Part shown: positions 9,371 through 22,353 of the stretch, piece by piece
Numbering within the stretch: position 1 is the stretch's first letter
Layout: every line of letters begins with the position of its first letter
Source of the DNA: a virus
Virus record (IMG/VR): IMGVR_UViG_3300028394_000109
Coordinates: 1 to 49,490 of that record
Direction: 5' to 3' (one strand)
DNA length: 49,490 bases
Position numbers and translations under genes: made by a program
The notes under the pieces: model-generated
The model's input: the letters and a program-made list of their open reading frames with translations, nothing else
Databases searched by the model: none
Told to the model about the DNA's origin: nothing

Positions 9371-9527
9371 AATCAAAACAGCTTATAACTTCTTCTAATT
9401 TTTTTATCAATTTTGTAACATCATTTAATTTTTGATTATCATGTACAGTAAACGTCATATTTGATAGACATTCATGCATTAATAAAAAATCTGCCTTCTC
9501 AATACCCTCAACTATTAATTCATTCAT
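9366..9527 (-). CDS. Short hypothetical protein coupled to the collar-domain fibre gene
   Basis: 53 residues. The ATG at 9527 overlaps the stop of the fibre gene as ATGA, and the stop lies inside the next promoter element, so the frame fits tightly between its neighbours. It begins MNELIVEGIEKADFLLMHEC and has a helical, Lys/Glu-rich C-terminus. Function unknown; the position suggests a small fibre-assembly or accessory protein, but nothing in the sequence proves it. Confidence 0.5.
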   Translation of the reverse strand: MNELIVEGIEKADFLLMHECLSNMTFTVHDNQKLNDVTKLIKKLEEVISCFDY

Positions 9528-11266
9528 AATGTATAACCTACTATTCTTATTTTAGCTGTAATCAGATGATTTAAATTCATTCTTAATCCAAATATCAATT
9601 TTCCAGAACTATCTCCTGAAAGAGGTATAAATGTTTGTGTTAGGTTTGCTTGATGATCAAAGTTACCTTCTGCCCAACCAGTAGCTAAACCATATTCATC
9701 ATCAGTTGGACTTCCAGTATTTCCACTATCTAATAAATCAAAATTTGGAGCCGCTACAATATATAATTGAGAGGGTGGCCCCCAAGCATCCTTACGAATG
9801 CTTGTTTCAATAATTAAATTCTTTGCATTATATGGTACTGATGCTGCAGGCGTAACAGATAGACCAGTAACGAGTGTAGTATTTACACCCATAGGATCCG
9901 TTATCCCTGTAATATATGGATATGCAGTAACTGCAGTCTTAAACGAGTAATATGTTTCCACTGGTGGGGGAAATCCTGCGTCTTTGTTATATATAGTAAC
10001 CGGATTTTTAAAAAATACTATAGGTGATGTTTGATTAATAACTTGAGTATTTTGTGGTAATACTGTAGTAATCTTACCTGCAGAACTAACATCTTGTGAT
10101 ACAACCTGAGTTACTCTACCATAAGTATCGACTAAAAAATCATCAGTTTTACAATGTACTGTAACCGCTGAAAGTAGAGGTGGCAGCCCAACAGCTAAAT
10201 TACCGGTTAGTGTAGATACTGTAGATCCGGTAGATGCTACATTATTTACTGTCGCTGTTAAACCATTACTAATTGTTATGGTTGACTGTACAATATTATC
10301 AGGAACCGCTTTGATAATATACAACATACCTGTTGCACTTAATGCTCCTGTAGTTGTTGTGCTCGCGCAAAGTGTATATACAGTTGAACTACCAGGGTTG
10401 TTCGACACTCCATATATTGTCTTATTAATTAAATTAGGAACATTAAAACTTGCACCACTACCACCAAATGTCGTTTTAATTACAGCAGATAAATAAGGAT
10501 ATGCTGAACCTAATACTAATTGACCGTTACATAATAACCAACCGGTTGGAGCATTAGCGGCTGACACAAACGGCATTATAGTACCTACTGGTATTTGACC
10601 TGCAGTACCCGCAACAAACAATGTTGTATTAACTAATGATGGTTTCCATGATAAATTACCTGCTATATCAGTAGTTAATACTAACTCTGTGCCAACACCA
10701 CCGGTAGGCCAGTTATAATTAATTGAATTAATCGATAAACCTGCAGGTAGTGTCAGATAAGACGAATCATATGTAGATATACGGTTTGTCTTAATATTAG
10801 TAGAACTTAAAGATATTTTATTGTTAGAATCAAGTTCAAGTGAGTTACCTAACGCATTTGAAGAAAAATTACCTGCAGATAGAGTACCTACACTAATACT
10901 ATTAGCGGAAGATATAACAATACTATTATTAGCTTTTGAATAAACACCACCTACTTCTTCCCAATTTGCTAAAATAGCACTATTGGAATTTTTTAATCTG
11001 TATAACTTGTTTGTACTTGTAGAGTATGCTAAATCTCCTATTAAAACATTAGCTAATAATGTAATATCTGCAACAGAACCTTTAAAAAGGTTACCTACAA
11101 GATTACCGCCAGGATTTTGATTATCTCCTACATACAACCGTTCTGTATCAGTAGTATAACCTAATTCACCTTCTGATAATACAACTTGCTGTCTGTCTGC
11201 ATCGGAACCTCGCCGTACAAGTAGTTTTAATAAAGTATTTTCAAGAATTTCTATTTTTTTCGCCAT
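9524..11266 (-). CDS. Tail fibre with Mtd-like N-terminus and tail collar domain
   Basis: 580 residues. Residues about 10-60 (RRGSDADRQQVVLSEGELGY, then TDTERLYVGD) match the short N-terminal domain seen in Bordetella phage Mtd and many fibres, which attaches the fibre. Around 225-290 is a phage tail collar domain: VGTIMPFVSAANAPTGWLLC, then NGQ and FNVPNL. The rest is repetitive beta structure ending in a possible receptor-binding tip. The protein should be a receptor-recognising appendage at the baseplate. No Shine-Dalgarno; a TTAAATA lies 15 nt upstream. It shares its N-terminal domain with the gene at 11278. G+C looks higher than in the baseplate genes. Confidence 0.78.
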   Translation of the reverse strand: MAKKIEILENTLLKLLVRRGSDADRQQVVLSEGELGYTTDTERLYVGDNQNPGGNLVGNLFKGSVADITLLANVLIGDLAYSTSTNKLYRLKNSNSAILANWEEVGGVYSKANNSIVISSANSISVGTLSAGNFSSNALGNSLELDSNNKISLSSTNIKTNRISTYDSSYLTLPAGLSINSINYNWPTGGVGTELVLTTDIAGNLSWKPSLVNTTLFVAGTAGQIPVGTIMPFVSAANAPTGWLLCNGQLVLGSAYPYLSAVIKTTFGGSGASFNVPNLINKTIYGVSNNPGSSTVYTLCASTTTTGALSATGMLYIIKAVPDNIVQSTITISNGLTATVNNVASTGSTVSTLTGNLAVGLPPLLSAVTVHCKTDDFLVDTYGRVTQVVSQDVSSAGKITTVLPQNTQVINQTSPIVFFKNPVTIYNKDAGFPPPVETYYSFKTAVTAYPYITGITDPMGVNTTLVTGLSVTPAASVPYNAKNLIIETSIRKDAWGPPSQLYIVAAPNFDLLDSGNTGSPTDDEYGLATGWAEGNFDHQANLTQTFIPLSGDSSGKLIFGLRMNLNHLITAKIRIVGYTL

Positions 11267-11277
11267 AAAATTATATA

Positions 11278-12369
11278 TTAATATTTAAAGATGGGTATAG
11301 CTACTCTGCCCATAGGAGTAAGTAATGACATAAATCCTGCTGAGCTTAATGTTATAGTAGACGATATCGCTGGATTAACAGGATTTGCAGACATTGCAGT
11401 TAATAATGTTTGGTTACTATATACTAACTGATCTATATGTCCATTAAATATTGACAATGGTGATGATAGATTTTTACCTGATAAATTTGCATATATTAAC
11501 GATGATTTACCTGTTATTTGTCCGTACTGATTATAGGTTACATTATCAAAGAGCGTTCCGCCATTAGTAATGATTTGTTTTAACTTAACGGCATTTGATG
11601 CAAGCTCAATAGTTACACCATCTACAGCTTGTAAATTAGTTACAAGCTTATTACTAGATATAGATAAGCCAGCTCCAATCATTCCGCTACTTAATGAGGT
11701 TGTTGTTACAATACCCGCAGGTAAAGCTGTTAATGTAAGTTGATTAGAGCCATTATAACCAAATGTAGCGGGATCTTCGTTAATTTGCACAACACTACCA
11801 CTACCACCTTCTAACCCTCTGCCTAAAATTGAATTAGGTATATTACTTGCATTTATAGAGCCAACCGCTAATTTATATTGGTTACTAGAGTTTAATACAA
11901 TAGTACTATTATCAACATTTGCAGATAAGCCATTAGTTTTAGTAGCAACTAAGCCACCAGATGCATAAGCTGCAGTACTTGCAAATTTAATTCCGCTTAT
12001 TCCATTATCCTTAATAATTAACTCATTATTACCGTTATATTGTAGTGATATATTATCAGTAATTGGGCTTAAGATAGTCCATGAGCCCGTCTGAGTATAA
12101 TCTGGACTTGTAAGCTGATATAATATATTTTGATCTTTCACTATATCGCCTAATACAGCAGATGTAAGCGTCAATCTATAATTAGGAGTTGTACCTGGTA
12201 AGTATGCAATATTACCTACTGCAGTACCACCTGGTAATAAACCATCTCCCACAAATACTCGTTTTGTATCTGTAGTATATCCTAATTCGCCCTGCTCTAA
12301 TATAACTCCCTGACGTTGTGCATCAGATCCGCGTCTTATTTTTAACTTTACAATTGTTATGTCTGGCAT
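11278..12369 (-). CDS. Tail fibre protein with Mtd-like N-terminus, paralogue of the 9524 gene
   Basis: 363 residues. The first 60 residues (KIRRGSDAQRQGVILEQGEL, then GYTTDTKRVFVGDG) are clearly homologous to those of the neighbouring 580-residue fibre, including the GGxxVGN turn, whereas the remainder diverges and lacks the collar motif. It is therefore a second fibre that probably docks on the same kind of site. A perfect TATAAATA lies 7 nt before its ATG. Confidence 0.72.
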   Translation of the reverse strand: MPDITIVKLKIRRGSDAQRQGVILEQGELGYTTDTKRVFVGDGLLPGGTAVGNIAYLPGTTPNYRLTLTSAVLGDIVKDQNILYQLTSPDYTQTGSWTILSPITDNISLQYNGNNELIIKDNGISGIKFASTAAYASGGLVATKTNGLSANVDNSTIVLNSSNQYKLAVGSINASNIPNSILGRGLEGGSGSVVQINEDPATFGYNGSNQLTLTALPAGIVTTTSLSSGMIGAGLSISSNKLVTNLQAVDGVTIELASNAVKLKQIITNGGTLFDNVTYNQYGQITGKSSLIYANLSGKNLSSPLSIFNGHIDQLVYSNQTLLTAMSANPVNPAISSTITLSSAGFMSLLTPMGRVAIPIFKY

Positions 12370-12376
12370 TTATATT

Positions 12377-12384
12377 TATTTATA
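12377..12384 (-). promoter_or_regulatory. Late-type promoter element for the 12369 fibre gene
   Basis: TATAAATA, exact T4 late consensus, ending 7 nt before the ATG. Its internal TAA is the stop codon (12380-12382) of the preceding gene. Confidence 0.65.
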
Positions 12385-12874
12385 AGCTTAATGGTGGTTG
12401 CATTAAAGATAAGGTTTTTTCTTCTTGTTCTGTTACAAATAACGTCTCAGGATCATCTTTATATTCTACAATTGTGTCTTTTAGGTGATTTAGCTCTGCT
12501 GTTATAGTCGTATGCATTTTTTCAAAAGCTGGAGTAGATAGAGAATTAGGTGCTTTTAAGTTAAATAGAGCTTCTCTAATAATATTAAGCTGAGTATACA
12601 CATCATAACCGTGTTTTTGAATAATACGCTCATGAGTTTTTTGCTTTAGTTCTGATTCATGTATAATAGCTATATTTGACTGAATTATTTTCGCATATTC
12701 ATCAGTCTTTACATTATATAGCTGACCTGTGTCAAAATCACCTATGTAATCATACAGAGTTAAATCAGTATGTTCTGGATATTCTTTAATTAAAAAATTA
12801 GTACTAATATGCCAATCTGCTTTTTCTGTAAAGAACAAAAATTGCTTATCTGATGAATTAAATACACCTACCAT
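12380..12874 (-). CDS. Hypothetical protein in the fibre cluster, possible fibre assembly factor
   Basis: 164 residues, not recognised. It starts VGVFNSSDKQFLFFTEKADW, has a Tyr/Asp-rich middle (LTLYDYIGDFDTGQLYN), then a helical C-terminal half. Small helical proteins beside fibre genes are often fibre-assembly chaperones, but no family signature is visible. ACTAAATA, a one-base variant of the promoter element, lies 5 nt before the ATG. Confidence 0.55.
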   Translation of the reverse strand: MVGVFNSSDKQFLFFTEKADWHISTNFLIKEYPEHTDLTLYDYIGDFDTGQLYNVKTDEYAKIIQSNIAIIHESELKQKTHERIIQKHGYDVYTQLNIIREALFNLKAPNSLSTPAFEKMHTTITAELNHLKDTIVEYKDDPETLFVTEQEEKTLSLMQPPLSL

Positions 12875-12879
12875 ACATC

Positions 12880-12887
12880 TATTTAGT
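12880..12887 (-). promoter_or_regulatory. Late-type promoter element (variant) for the 12874 gene
   Basis: ACTAAATA on the minus strand, spacer GATGT (5 nt), then ATG. Confidence 0.45.
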
Positions 12888-12891
12888 ACAA

Positions 12892-13368
12892 TTAATTAAC
12901 AAGTCCAATAACTAAAGTATATCTGACTTCACCTCTTGTAGGGTGTACCCAATGATATGCGTTTCTATTAAATTTAATTTCACTTCCAGCTATATCTTCA
13001 TAGAATTTATATGCATCTTTTTCTTGGATTGTTAATCCATTGAGCGTATTAGTACTTAATTGAAATAATCTTAGCTTAGATAAATAGTTATCCTTATGAG
13101 GTAAGATATAATCACCTTCTTGATAACGTTGTATTTGCATAAAATCAAATACAACGCGTTCACTGTCAGAAAAATTAGAGTTTATTAAATTATATAGCGT
13201 ATCGTCAAAATTAACCGATCGAAGAGAGGAAAATCTACTAGATCCAAAAACATCTTTAAATTCGAGTCTTTTTTCTTCGTTTACTTCTCTATTATCAAAT
13301 ATAAAATCTTTAGAATTAATATATTTGATAATATCTTGACTATTTTTAATTACATTATTAATTCTCAT
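12892..13368 (-). CDS. 2-oxoglutarate/Fe(II)-dependent oxygenase
   Basis: 158 residues. The double-stranded beta-helix motifs are complete: IQRYQEGDYILPHKD with the iron ligands H91 and D93, then AYHWVHPTRGEVRYTLVIG with the distal H139 and the 2-oxoglutarate-binding R149 exactly ten residues later, as in the prolyl-hydroxylase-like family. It should hydroxylate a protein side chain or small molecule using O2 and 2-oxoglutarate. Its ATG overlaps the stop of the fibre-like gene upstream (ATGA), so it is made with virion proteins; modification of a tail protein is an attractive but unproven idea. Confidence 0.8.
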   Translation of the reverse strand: MRINNVIKNSQDIIKYINSKDFIFDNREVNEEKRLEFKDVFGSSRFSSLRSVNFDDTLYNLINSNFSDSERVVFDFMQIQRYQEGDYILPHKDNYLSKLRLFQLSTNTLNGLTIQEKDAYKFYEDIAGSEIKFNRNAYHWVHPTRGEVRYTLVIGLVN

Positions 13369-14210
13369 GATATTAAATAATTTGTAGCTGAAAAAGTAGT
13401 AGTAGTAGCAAATGTTTGATAAGTTGTATCTGTATAATAATTTGTATTTGCATAACCATTATTCACCCAATCAGTTGCCAAATTTGAACTACCTGTTCTT
13501 TTAAATACGGCAGTGGATATGTATGTTTCAAAATCATAAAAATAGAAACTAATTCTACTTTGATTATTTACTTTCTTGCCGTACTGAGTGACAATAGCTA
13601 TATCACCCACAGTTCCAGTAATGTTTGGAGAAACTCCTAATGGCCAAACACTATGTAAGAATGTCTGCAGACTTGCTGTCTGAACATCTCCTTCAATACC
13701 AGGAATACCATCAACGGTGCCGTCAGCGAAATACGGATACACAGCGCCAGGAGCACGCGGAACAACTCTCCAAACATAATTACGTACTGCTCCACGACTT
13801 TGAATACTAGTAATCAGTCCATTAGAGACAGTAATTCGAGGATTTATATATGTTCCATCTGGTAAACTACTATTTACAGCATTAAATACATCATTAAAAT
13901 TAGCTAAAGCAAGAGTACCTGCACCAGACCGAATTACAATATGGTTATCAACTCCAGTATCTATTCTCGGCATAGTCAATTCATTAGCAACCAATGAATT
14001 TCCTTTAATAATCGCATTACCGGAGAGCAATCCTGTTATACTTGCTCCCTGATTTTGTCTGCCTAAAGATAATGCTGATACCTCACCAGAACCGTCATGA
14101 ATTTTTGTTTGCCCTGTAGCTGATAGAGGTACTCCTCTTGCGTGTAATACGCCTAAATACGTATCACTAATGTTAGTATTGGTAAGTTGCGGTGTGTTAA
14201 TGGTTGCCAT
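13365..14210 (-). CDS. Probable tail fibre protein
   Basis: 281 residues. The beginning (ATINTPQLTNTNISDTYLGV) and the Gly/Ser/Ala-rich repeats after it are typical of an elongated trimeric fibre. A segment near 160-185 (GAVYPYFADGTVDGIPGIEG) and the Tyr/Thr-rich C-terminus may form a tip domain. No family name can be given. Promoter element ATTAAATA lies 5 nt before the ATG. It is co-translated with the oxygenase. G+C looks higher than in the baseplate genes. Confidence 0.6.
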   Translation of the reverse strand: MATINTPQLTNTNISDTYLGVLHARGVPLSATGQTKIHDGSGEVSALSLGRQNQGASITGLLSGNAIIKGNSLVANELTMPRIDTGVDNHIVIRSGAGTLALANFNDVFNAVNSSLPDGTYINPRITVSNGLITSIQSRGAVRNYVWRVVPRAPGAVYPYFADGTVDGIPGIEGDVQTASLQTFLHSVWPLGVSPNITGTVGDIAIVTQYGKKVNNQSRISFYFYDFETYISTAVFKRTGSSNLATDWVNNGYANTNYYTDTTYQTFATTTTFSATNYLIS

Positions 14211-19500: not shown

Positions 19501-22353
19501 TTAGGAATACGGAGTGCATAGTACCTTGTATGCAGTCCCGGTCGAGTCATACAAGGTGATAAATCCAGTGGCGCTCAGTCCCGGAACGGCAGAGAAAGCG
19601 TTGTCGGTGGTGAGTTTGCCCTTAATTGAATTACTTACATAGACACTACCGCCTGCTGAAAGAGAACCTTTTAACGTAATTGCTGAAAATGATGGACTAT
19701 CAGTCGTTCCCAGCCCAATATTAGTACGTGCACCTGATGCTGTCGGTGAGCCAGTACCTCCTGCTGATAACGGTAATATGTATGTATCTGCTGGAATAGT
19801 ATCAGTACTAATCATTAAGGAGTTTCCGCGTCTCCACAGCGTTCCGGGTGCTCCTAAACCGGGATCGGCAGTTAGAATAGCAGCAAGCGATAGATTAATA
19901 GAGTTACTACAAAGTGATACGGTAGTGGTTCTATTTGGTCTTAAATACATAGGTTTATTCTCAGCTGTTCCAATGCATAAACTATCTGCGTTTCCTGCTC
20001 CATCGATATAATTATTACTTCCTGGTGCCGCAAACATTTGTAGAACAGAATCATCAGACCCTATTACAGGATAGCTATATATTAATGTATTATGCCGCAT
20101 ACCTCTTAATACTAAAGTCTTTACTGCGGCAATTGATACATTACCCGTTCTACTTTCAAAAGATCCATCAGTGAGAAAACTAACACGATCATCCAAGCGA
20201 GGGACATTAGAATATTTGCCTATAGCAGATCCTAATAAACTGCCTACTATATTATAAGCTGTATTTGTTTTATTAAAATATGCCCATGTAGAGGAACCGA
20301 TATGTAAACCAAGTTCAATCATATCACTATCTACATTTAATACTCCTGCATTATTACCAGGAAGATAAACACCTCCTCCAGTGTATGCAGCATTACCAGA
20401 TAATCCAGTTAATGCAAATGTATTGATATCTATAGCACTAATAGATGCATTAGTCACATTTGCATTAGTATTCCCTTGAACTCCAGTAATTGTTACCTTA
20501 TCACCAGTAGATCTTCCGTGACCAGATGCTGTTACAAACATGGTAGAGGTGTTTGTGACGTTAGTAATTGCTGTGGTGTATTTACCTGCCTGAAAAACCG
20601 GTATATTTACCCCATTACAATTTACAAATTGTGCTCCGTTGACTGCATCTTCTGCCTGAAATGCTTGAATATTAGTTCCTTGACAATTTTTAGCATAGAG
20701 TGCAGGATAATAATCCCCATTACTGTCCTTTGCCCATTGGTATCTGTTAATAAATGATGAAACTATTTGATTCGCTGAAAAATTATAACATGTATATAAA
20801 CTTATTCCTGGACCACGAGTAATACCCTCAACGTTTAAGTATCCTACATCGATAGAACCTCCGTTAATTTCGGTCACAAATCCTCTTAGACTACATTCAT
20901 AAACTCCTAACCATTCAATTACCCCTCTTTGCGCACATGAAAATCTTAATCCACTACTGTATGCGTTATAGTCTCTATTACCCCTAATACTTATGTTATT
21001 GATATATGCATTAAATGTATTTGCAGCACCAGGACCGTGTGATTCATTAGATAACATATACACTACATATTTTTCAAAAGCAGTTGCAACATTATTTTTA
21101 AAGTTAATAAATACATGTTTGTTTTCTCCTATTAACCCAACTCCACCGTAAATATACCAAGTATCTGAAGTGTAATAAATAGTGCTTACACAAGATTTTG
21201 CAGGAAAATATATAGTTCCAAGACGAAGAGGGGTACCCTGACCTTTTATATATACTACCGCATTAGGCGGAATAGCCTGTATTAAACCGGGAGAAGCGAT
21301 GGTAATAGTTCCTGGTGCAGATACTCCAGCGGTCACAGTATATTCATAGCTGTCACTATTAAAGGTAATAATATCACCAACAAGAACATTGCCAGTACCT
21401 GCGATAACAGGAATAGAAGTCGTACCTGCTGCAAATCCCACTGCTGTAGTAGTATATTCTGTTCCATTTCCTTTAAGTGGTGGAGGAGTTTCCCCAGACC
21501 ATGTACCGGTGATAGGCTTAGGATTATCTCCATCTAAATAACGTGGTAACGAATTGTATGCAGATTTAAGAGCAGATAAACAGTCGACAGCCGTAGCACC
21601 TGCATTAAAATCATCAGAAGTCGGCAATGCTCCAAAATTCAATACATTTCTAGGACCTGTGTAAAATGCATAATCTGATGTAGCATCTTCTGGATTTTCA
21701 TAATCGACAAAAGAACCTTCACTAAATTCAATTACCGTATTTGATACATATGTGGATAAAGGAAATCCTGAAGGAATTCTAAAACCCCCTTGTGACAGTT
21801 CTGCAACAGCAGGAATTGATGGAGTAAGTTGTGCATATTGTAATGCCTTTTTCAATGCATCCATTCTAGCAACATTAGTATCAGCAGACGATTCGAATTT
21901 TTTGACATTGTTACCTTGTTTCAATAATACATATCCATACTCCGGAGGATTAAAGTCTGATACCCACTCATTCAATCCATTACTATTTAAACTTGGAGAT
22001 GCATATGGTATGTTTATAACTTTACTAGAAGCTCCATTAATAGTAGCAGCACCAGCATATAAAGTAGCATAATTGGTAGTATTTAACAGACCATTAACAT
22101 CTGAAAATATTAATGTATTTCCATTAGGATAACTAGCAGGGCTAGGTAAAGTATATATTCTAGGTTGTGTTAATGTTGCAGTTAATCTTGCTATAGTAGT
22201 ACCAGCAGCAATAGTTGCATTAGCATCTCCAAGGTTTTGTATTTTAATAGGAAGTAGCCCGAGTCTGGTTTGTCCCCATGCTTGATCACTACTAGTTGGT
22301 GTTAGACCTTCGACAAAAAGTCTATCTGCTTCTGGTTTTAAGTATGTACTCAT
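19501..22353 (-). CDS. Tailspike/tail fibre with pectate-lyase-like beta-helix
   Basis: 950 residues. Residues 1-130 form an adaptor-like start, with the sequence WGQTRLGLLPIKIQNLGD. From about 390 to 620 there are stacked short beta-strand repeats (NAYINNISIRGNRDYNAYSS, INGGSIDVGYLNVEG, YAKNCQGTNIQAFQA) typical of right-handed parallel beta-helix spikes that bind or cleave polysaccharide. Near 870 the fibre motif AGGTGSPTASGARTNIGLGT occurs, followed by a short C-terminal domain. Base composition is visibly richer in G+C than the neighbours, most strongly in the last 120 bases, suggesting acquisition by recombination. Its start overlaps the previous gene's stop. Catalytic residues were not identified. 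Confidence 0.75.
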   Translation of the reverse strand: MSTYLKPEADRLFVEGLTPTSSDQAWGQTRLGLLPIKIQNLGDANATIAAGTTIARLTATLTQPRIYTLPSPASYPNGNTLIFSDVNGLLNTTNYATLYAGAATINGASSKVINIPYASPSLNSNGLNEWVSDFNPPEYGYVLLKQGNNVKKFESSADTNVARMDALKKALQYAQLTPSIPAVAELSQGGFRIPSGFPLSTYVSNTVIEFSEGSFVDYENPEDATSDYAFYTGPRNVLNFGALPTSDDFNAGATAVDCLSALKSAYNSLPRYLDGDNPKPITGTWSGETPPPLKGNGTEYTTTAVGFAAGTTSIPVIAGTGNVLVGDIITFNSDSYEYTVTAGVSAPGTITIASPGLIQAIPPNAVVYIKGQGTPLRLGTIYFPAKSCVSTIYYTSDTWYIYGGVGLIGENKHVFINFKNNVATAFEKYVVYMLSNESHGPGAANTFNAYINNISIRGNRDYNAYSSGLRFSCAQRGVIEWLGVYECSLRGFVTEINGGSIDVGYLNVEGITRGPGISLYTCYNFSANQIVSSFINRYQWAKDSNGDYYPALYAKNCQGTNIQAFQAEDAVNGAQFVNCNGVNIPVFQAGKYTTAITNVTNTSTMFVTASGHGRSTGDKVTITGVQGNTNANVTNASISAIDINTFALTGLSGNAAYTGGGVYLPGNNAGVLNVDSDMIELGLHIGSSTWAYFNKTNTAYNIVGSLLGSAIGKYSNVPRLDDRVSFLTDGSFESRTGNVSIAAVKTLVLRGMRHNTLIYSYPVIGSDDSVLQMFAAPGSNNYIDGAGNADSLCIGTAENKPMYLRPNRTTTVSLCSNSINLSLAAILTADPGLGAPGTLWRRGNSLMISTDTIPADTYILPLSAGGTGSPTASGARTNIGLGTTDSPSFSAITLKGSLSAGGSVYVSNSIKGKLTTDNAFSAVPGLSATGFITLYDSTGTAYKVLCTPYS

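Follow-up and report, generated by a model that had tools for sequence, protein, structure and literature searches.

The occurrence of 2-oxoglutarate (2OG) oxygenases in cyanophages is well established. In one study they are described as having the highest copy number of the auxiliary genes in its phage, and as genes that may have multiple functions (PMC10436341). Another paper calls the use of prolyl 4-hydroxylases by viruses cryptic, recalling the case of PBCV-1 and the presence of collagen in viral tail fibres (PMC9301287).

Several described arrangements resemble parts of the locus considered here. Tail-fibre assembly proteins (Mu U/gp50, P2 G, T4 gp38) are encoded by a small gene situated after the fibre gene, and Mu U/gp50 is exchanged with the fibre C-terminus. 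In Synechococcus phage Sf-FP1, the genes for a short tail fibre, a 2OG oxygenase, a 'tail assembly chaperone' and another 2OG oxygenase form a row; this row (L126:1346-7371; Sf-FP1 45345-51370) also holds a prolyl hydroxylase-like gene and possibly represents an independent association between a fibre and an oxygenase. A row of four genes of the 2OG/phytanoyl-CoA dioxygenase type is seen in HTVC008M (L123:7443-9682; HTVC008M 57442-59681), with putative ferrochelatase and neck genes beside it and a tryptophan halogenase gene nearby. No description of a cassette comprising a fibre, an oxygenase and a partner was found in the open-access literature searched.

The oxygenase gene and its neighbours

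The window, that is, the whole stretch of DNA analysed here, is a 49,490-base IMG/VR virus record (IMGVR_UViG_3300028394_000109, positions 1 to 49,490). It carries T4-like genes, encoding a gp32-like protein, a 5'-3' exonuclease, baseplate wedge proteins and a clamp loader. The oxygenase gene is located in a run of appendage genes, listed below; L004 is a close relative.

9524 to 11266, minus strand: appendage gene, tail collar and Mtd_N domains (PF07484, E 2.7e-14; 75% identical in L004)
11278 to 12369, minus strand: next appendage gene, Mtd_N domain (PF18454, E 1e-11; 75% identical in L004)
12380 to 12874, minus strand: small partner protein, 164 aa, phrog_13209 family (an oxygenase is nearby in all 20 partner-scan loci)
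12892 to 13368, minus strand: 2-oxoglutarate/Fe(II) oxygenase, 158 aa, ATG start (assigned by active-site residues, conservation and predicted fold)
13365 to 13368, minus strand: ATGA stop/start overlap from the fibre-like gene to the oxygenase gene (plus-strand bases TCAT, minus-strand ATGA)
13365 to 14210, minus strand: fibre-like gene, 281 aa, presumed substrate (no family match; position in the appendage run)

The ATGA overlap between the stop of the fibre-like ORF and the oxygenase, described in the initial annotation, is indeed present at 13365-13368. It had been interpreted as translational coupling, but as a signal it has little weight: from 6841 to 30363, five of 16 junctions on the minus strand have an overlap of -4, the oxygenase junction counted in. 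Such coupling is frequent in the window and is not informative here.

The protein encoded at 13365-14210 matches no Pfam or PHROG family, even with E values up to 1 allowed. We infer that it is fibre-like; it lies in one run with two genes whose Mtd_N and tail-collar domains exceed the cut-off. It is related to the gene preceding the oxygenase in locus L077 (phmmer 5.1e-8, among 17 sequences), probably via its N-terminal part, as the L004 fibre matches the L077 fibre too. The suggestion that this fibre could be Pro/Asn-rich or collagen-like had to be dropped, as the fractions of proline (0.039) and asparagine (0.085) are not high compared to the neighbours, and the longest G-X-X run has three units. 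The other fibre in which the run was measured, that of L146, does contain a collagen-like run of 56 consecutive G-X-X units.

The partner gene at 12380-12874 was missed by the initial annotation. Its product matches phrog_13209 with E 0.0029; a weak match to Imm42 (E 8.4e-4, 20.3 bits; cut-off 27.2) was not taken as meaningful, and three relatives of the partner have no Pfam match at E up to 0.1. We also considered and rejected homology of the partner to the tail-fibre assembly proteins of Mu, P2 and T4, as the hhalign match covered 11 columns with a score of 17.9, reached by one of 100 column shuffles. Elsewhere in the window, a large tail-region protein (19501-22353) shows a weak match to E1_FCCH (PF16190, E 2.6e-5, 24.6 bits; cut-off 29.5).

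Active site, predicted fold and enzyme class

The complete H91-D93-H139-R149 site claimed for the oxygenase was confirmed, with all four residues at these positions in the translated ORF:

13090 to 13098, minus strand: HxD metal-binding motif H91-K92-D93 (H and D kept in all 27 aligned sequences)
12952 to 12954, minus strand: H139, distal metal ligand (invariant in 27 of 27)
12922 to 12924, minus strand: R149, presumed to bind the carboxylate of 2-oxoglutarate (arginine in 25 of the 27, lysine in the other 2)

Viral contigs were scanned with the motif YxxGDxxxPHKD (69 loci) and with an alignment (13 loci). Besides a near-identical contig, nine of the 69 motif loci contain clear relatives (phmmer E < 1e-20). 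In 12 aligned sequences, the window included, 27 columns are invariant, H91, D93, H139 and R149 among them, and hence the ORF at 12892-13368 is more than a chance one. Over the set of 27 aligned oxygenases, again with the window, the invariant residues include Y82, G85, H91, D93 and H139; the first four are part of the search motif, so they are kept by construction in part of the 27. These four residues are also kept in sequences reached by tblastn or via the partner (L135, L138, L140, L141, L144, L145, L146). The PhiPA3 oxygenase is annotated with a late start and was therefore excluded from the 27; its frame shows H-x-D and H...RRY. Four distant oxygenase matches (L013, L025, L042, L071; 1e-3 to 1e-5), having no partner match in the fetched DNA, were left out of the count of metagenomic loci given below.

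Single sequences were of little use as queries for this family. No match was obtained by tblastn with the window oxygenase in 50,697 phage records at E up to 10, nor with two of its relatives at E up to 0.1, nor with the first oxygenase alignment against genome contigs. All Pfam matches of the single oxygenase are sub-threshold: the top one is PF18350, 'Restriction endonuclease SH3 domain' (E 0.0082, 16.5 bits; cut-off 27.7), and the others include PF05118 Asp_Arg_Hydrox (E 0.0095) and PF13640 2OG-FeII_Oxy_3 (E 0.16, 13.4 bits, below the curated cut-off of 27). PF13640 is passed, with 34-55 bits, by all five distant phrog_2297 members scanned (S-ShM2, S-CRM01, HTVC008M and two of Sf-FP1). The phrog_2297 profile itself matches the window oxygenase with E 3.6e-4, its relatives with 5.3e-6 and 9.8e-6, and gp222 of phage 201phi2-1 with 1.1e-49. 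This profile is labelled 'DNA endonuclease', which appears to be wrong, as the Pseudomonas phage proteins bearing the label belong to the oxygenase family studied here; an endonuclease catalytic domain (Pfam) is absent from the window oxygenase and from the four related oxygenases scanned, and the oxygenase fold extends over the entire model described next.

The AlphaFold model built from 23 sequences (mean pLDDT 92, pTM 0.87) has the double-stranded beta-helix of 2OG oxygenases, and this predicted fold is well supported; a single-sequence model (pLDDT 31.8) was not used. Foldseek yielded 139 PDB matches at E <= 0.001, and the 50 listed are 2OG oxygenases or named oxygenases. By E-value, the first place goes to a Shewanella oxygenase, and entries for AlkB and PiuC come next, with AlkB third (E 4.7e-6) and ahead of prolyl hydroxylases. 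The top rows of VIA-align are prolyl hydroxylases: PHD2 (Z 15.7), P. putida P4H (15.1 alone, 14.4 when solved with EF-Tu), T. adhaerens PHD (15.1) and algal P4H with (Ser-Pro)5 (14.8); AlkB (Z 14.1) is within about 1.6 Z of the best of them. The AlkB-like family PF13532 is also the best Pfam match of three distant relatives, below the cut-off. AlkB dioxygenases have an RxxxxxR motif. Its second Arg is absent from all 27 aligned oxygenases, where position R+6 is G, L, A or I. As to the substrate class, the model gives no more than a hint: prolyl hydroxylases are nearest by VIA-align, and AlkB is ahead of them in Foldseek.

Exchange with a relative and recurrence in other phages

Comparison with L004 shows that a segment containing the oxygenase has been exchanged:

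12384 to 13802, minus strand: segment without a blastn match at the equivalent place of L004 (fibre C-terminus, oxygenase and partner)
13365 to 13730, minus strand: exchanged C-terminal part of the fibre, residues 161-281 and the stop codon, a candidate tip domain (no detectable similarity in L004)

The DNA identity to L004 is 88.0% from 16210 down to 13803, then there is no match, and then the identity is 78.5% from 12383 to 11278. Residues 1-160 of the fibre are 74% identical, and the similarity of the proteins reaches residue 160 (base 13731). L004 has another fibre C-terminus and no oxygenase or partner, and only 24 bases separate its fibre gene from the following one; phrog_2297 has no match in the whole L004 contig (27,654 bases, a fragment). 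As L004 lacks all three elements together, the oxygenase and the partner come or go with the fibre C-terminus. This joint exchange, seen in one comparison, is what a fibre-specific modification predicts.

The window and the 12 loci L077-L088 (L083 and L084 having the same sequence) share one gene order, with the fibre-like gene first, then the oxygenase and then the partner. The gap between the fibre-like gene and the oxygenase ranges there from -4 to 39 bases, and the oxygenase and partner often overlap by 1 or 4 bases. A different order is observed in L146, L047 and L074, where the fibre-like gene is followed by the partner and then the oxygenase, in L146 with a third gene between them. Altogether, the oxygenase-partner pair adjoins a fibre-like gene in 18 of 21 distinct metagenomic loci (the window and L076, L083 and L084, L141, L142 and L143, and L047 and L061 being each counted as one, the last two merged on equal scores). 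In these loci 'fibre-like' is assigned mostly from position, tandem arrays and composition; formally, Mtd_N is above the cut-off in L078 and L146 has the collagen-like run, while L083 and L077 have no Pfam or PHROG match. In L138, L140 and L144, the oxygenase and the partner are 2.5-4.3 kb apart and the flanking DNA that was fetched contains no fibre-like gene; these loci are the main counter-evidence to the fibre being the substrate. The pair is situated there (L138:2970-6471, L140:3004-6471, L144:1185-6483) among genes that by eye are DNA methylase-, von Willebrand A- and phosphatase-like.

The small partner proteins can be aligned over their length across loci. A scan with the partner alignment yielded 20 loci, each with an oxygenase of the family within about 5 kb; 11 of them are the contigs from which the query came, and the nine new ones (seven distinct: L135, L138, L140, L141-L143, L144, L145, L146) all have the oxygenase. 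For scale, ten T4-like phage records comprising 1.83 Mb contain 20 phrog_2297 matches, about 0.13 per 12 kb. The phrog_13209 profile has no match in these ten records, and it also misses the partner in three of six contigs that carry one. The distances between oxygenases and between partners are correlated (r 0.79, 26 taxa, 0 of 5000 permutations as high; L135, whose partner is cut, was omitted), for which the common descent of the cassette is a sufficient explanation.

Queries from L047, L146 and L074 reach Pseudomonas phage records, 61 with the oxygenase and 72 and 70 with the partner. In all seven phages hand-picked from these 61-72 records (Milchi, PhiPA3, 201phi2-1, Churi, Psa21, Noxifer and QdP_Psa3), the phiKZ-like ones included, we observed a fibre or virion gene followed by the partner, the oxygenase and a third gene. 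The upstream gene of QdP_Psa3 has a Phage_tail_fib domain above the cut-off; that of Churi bears no fibre or virion name but is related to the one of Psa21. The cassette was identified by a PHROG scan in 201phi2-1 and Milchi (phrog_13209, phrog_2297, phrog_14616), and in the other picked phages its genes were placed by tblastn and alignment. According to the PhiPA3 record, the proteins at the fibre position are similar to phiKZ gp131-135, the partner to gp136, and the oxygenase to gp137.

Six of the seven records call the oxygenase a 'DNA endonuclease' (L149:8484-8966, L148:9025-9342, L151:7460-7912, L147:8920-9414, L152:5575-6063, L153:5896-6378), and that of Churi calls it a '2OG-Fe II oxygenase'; the former name is also used in several further records of Pseudomonas phages. 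The third gene beside the pair belongs to phrog_14616 in all four Pseudomonas-type phages scanned (L148:9351-9836, L149:8975-9463, L147:9411-9887, L146:1749-2243, L074:4503-4973 and L047:3836-4357 are its positions). The PhiPA3 representative, gp157, matches the oxygenase model by fold, and the aligned third proteins show no HxD by eye; hence this gene may encode an inactive sister domain. In 201phi2-1, gp216-220 and gp224 are annotated as virion proteins found by mass spectrometry, and gp221, gp222 and gp223 have no such note, as expected of helpers. This absence is weak evidence, since gp225 has no virion note either.

A shared fibre C-terminal domain across the four aquatic groups looked plausible by eye and was not supported, as the hhalign scores (8.7-15.3) are no better than those of shuffled window C-termini, which reach 18.5 (60 shuffles of the window C-terminus only, against each of two profiles). 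Within one group, L080-L088, the domain is recognised in the L085 fibre (hhalign E 8.7e-9). The fibre C-termini of the Pseudomonas phages, L074, L047 and L146 have weak pairwise phmmer links (E < 0.01, Z 1000) and different shafts. A tip profile made from them finds no fibre of the window lineage above background among 1,946 ORFs, the high scores being those of its own seeds and of one further L074 ORF (1.5e-7). A scan with one fibre family yielded 13 loci, nine of them contigs already known to have the pair; the four new contigs end inside the fibre array, so the scan decides nothing about fibres without an oxygenase. Separately, the third fibre-like gene of the array in L086 (3590-4906) and L162 (3269-4207) contains an in-frame stretch that by eye is a candidate Hint (intein/hedgehog) domain; in L086 it ends with VHN before a glycine run, and the L162 contig ends within it.

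Possible roles and comparison with known systems

The presence of the enzyme-partner pair beside fibre-like genes in many phages suggests that phages chemically modify the fibres used for host recognition. Specifically, while fibres are being assembled in the infected cell, a working 2OG/Fe(II) oxygenase would hydroxylate at least one residue of the neighbouring fibre, whose C-terminal tip is the most likely site; the dedicated partner encoded just downstream would probably present or fold the tip, and the two genes would form a cassette swapped jointly with fibre tips. We give this reading about an even chance of being correct. It builds on the active site, the predicted fold, the gene neighbourhood, the constant partner and the joint replacement in L004, from which we infer the fibre as the substrate, hydroxylation over other 2OG chemistry, the site modified, and the role of the partner. 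The wider proposal, of a hitherto unrecognised system of fibre maturation common to phages as different as T4-like and phiKZ-like ones, consisting of a peptidyl 2OG hydroxylase and a substrate-presenting partner, with exchange linked to the tips, is tentative, and we lean somewhat towards doubting it.

The initial annotation had derived the hydroxylation of virion proteins from the position in an appendage run. The recurrence of the appendage link in 18 of 21 loci and seven of seven phages shows that this link is no local accident and speaks for the derivation, and the exceptions L138, L140 and L144 speak against it. These same three loci, keeping the pair with no fibre-like gene nearby, fit a different substrate, namely a host protein such as EF-Tu, the target in P. 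putida; the fibre operon would then provide late expression, and the partner would be an adaptor. The P. putida P4H is among the nearest folds both alone and with EF-Tu. However, the pair's adjacency to fibre-like genes in most loci, its position after fibre or virion genes in all the picked phages, and its loss in L004 together with the fibre C-terminus make a host substrate rather unlikely, if still the likeliest of the alternatives.

The neighbourhood could also be an insertion site, with the oxygenase as a passenger in a hypervariable receptor-binding locus serving general auxiliary metabolism. 2OG oxygenases can be numerous in T4-like phages from aquatic habitats, with up to 8 phrog_2297 matches per genome, and DNA is presumably exchanged frequently at fibre loci. 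On the other hand, we would not expect a passenger to be found with one and the same partner throughout the nine new partner-scan loci, or with the same neighbours in phages both T4-like and phiKZ-like, and we regard this possibility as rather improbable.

The preference of the initial annotation for proteins over nucleic acids stands in part: VIA-align places prolyl hydroxylases closest in fold, with AlkB not far behind. An enzyme acting on nucleic acids like AlkB, or one of DNA metabolism in line with the 'DNA endonuclease' label of phrog_2297, would agree with the third place of AlkB in Foldseek, with PF13532 as the best, sub-threshold, family of three relatives, and with the restriction endonuclease SH3 domain as the top sub-threshold Pfam match of the window protein; moreover, broader phrog_2297 matches are located between uvsX and gp41 in S-CRM01 and S-ShM2. 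These replication-module enzymes, however, are outside the family model at 1e-4, phrog_13209 is unmatched in the ten T4-like records (with a profile that overlooks half of the six carrier contigs), and no Pfam endonuclease family is found among the relatives scanned. Together with the gene position and the missing second Arg in all 27 sequences, this leaves a role on nucleic acids with a small probability. Finally, a non-catalytic fibre-assembly chaperone or structural subunit with the oxygenase fold, for which the post-fibre position, like that of the Mu, P2 and T4 assembly genes, and the phiKZ-like third gene of the same fold without visible HxD could be invoked, is improbable given the invariant iron ligands in 27 of 27 sequences and the absence of a virion annotation for 201phi2-1 gp222, unlike most of its neighbours.

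If the fibre is indeed hydroxylated, the receptor-binding surface of the virion would be chemically modified, fibres might need host oxygen and 2-oxoglutarate to become infective, and recombinant fibres of such phages would be devoid of a modification possibly relevant to host binding. The cassette turns post-translational modification of receptor-binding proteins into a testable hypothesis, which extends to phiKZ-like laboratory phages.

Among known enzymes, the P4H/PHD hydroxylases (PHD2, P. putida, algal) are the nearest solved folds (Z 14.8-15.7) and have the same HxD...H...R/K site, but their identity to the window oxygenase in these rows is 11-17%, and there is no Pfam match above the cut-off. 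AlkB is alike in fold (Z 14.1), and differs by the second Arg of RxxxxxR, which is missing from all 27 aligned oxygenases. The collagen prolyl 4-hydroxylase of PBCV-1 (PDB 5c5t) is likewise a viral 2OG oxygenase of related fold (Z 13.8); however, PBCV-1 is a eukaryotic algal virus, the chain has 228 residues versus 158, and the window fibre has no collagen repeat.

As for gene arrangements, the cassette resembles the tail-fibre assembly genes in having a small gene after the fibre gene and, as in Mu, an exchange with the fibre C-terminus, whereas the partner has no homology to the Mu, P2 and T4 proteins by hhalign. In the Sf-FP1 row, the chaperone is unrelated to the partner, and one oxygenase matches the family model weakly (7.9e-6). 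The phiKZ-like cassette (gp221-gp222-gp223 of 201phi2-1 and gp155-gp156-gp157 of PhiPA3) has the same two families directly after virion genes at the fibre position; it differs in that the partner precedes the oxygenase and that a third oxygenase-fold gene without visible HxD is added, and there the oxygenase is labelled as a DNA endonuclease and the other two products as hypothetical. Thus, the kind of enzyme is known, and what is new is that the cassette is conserved and extends from T4-like phages to phiKZ-like ones.
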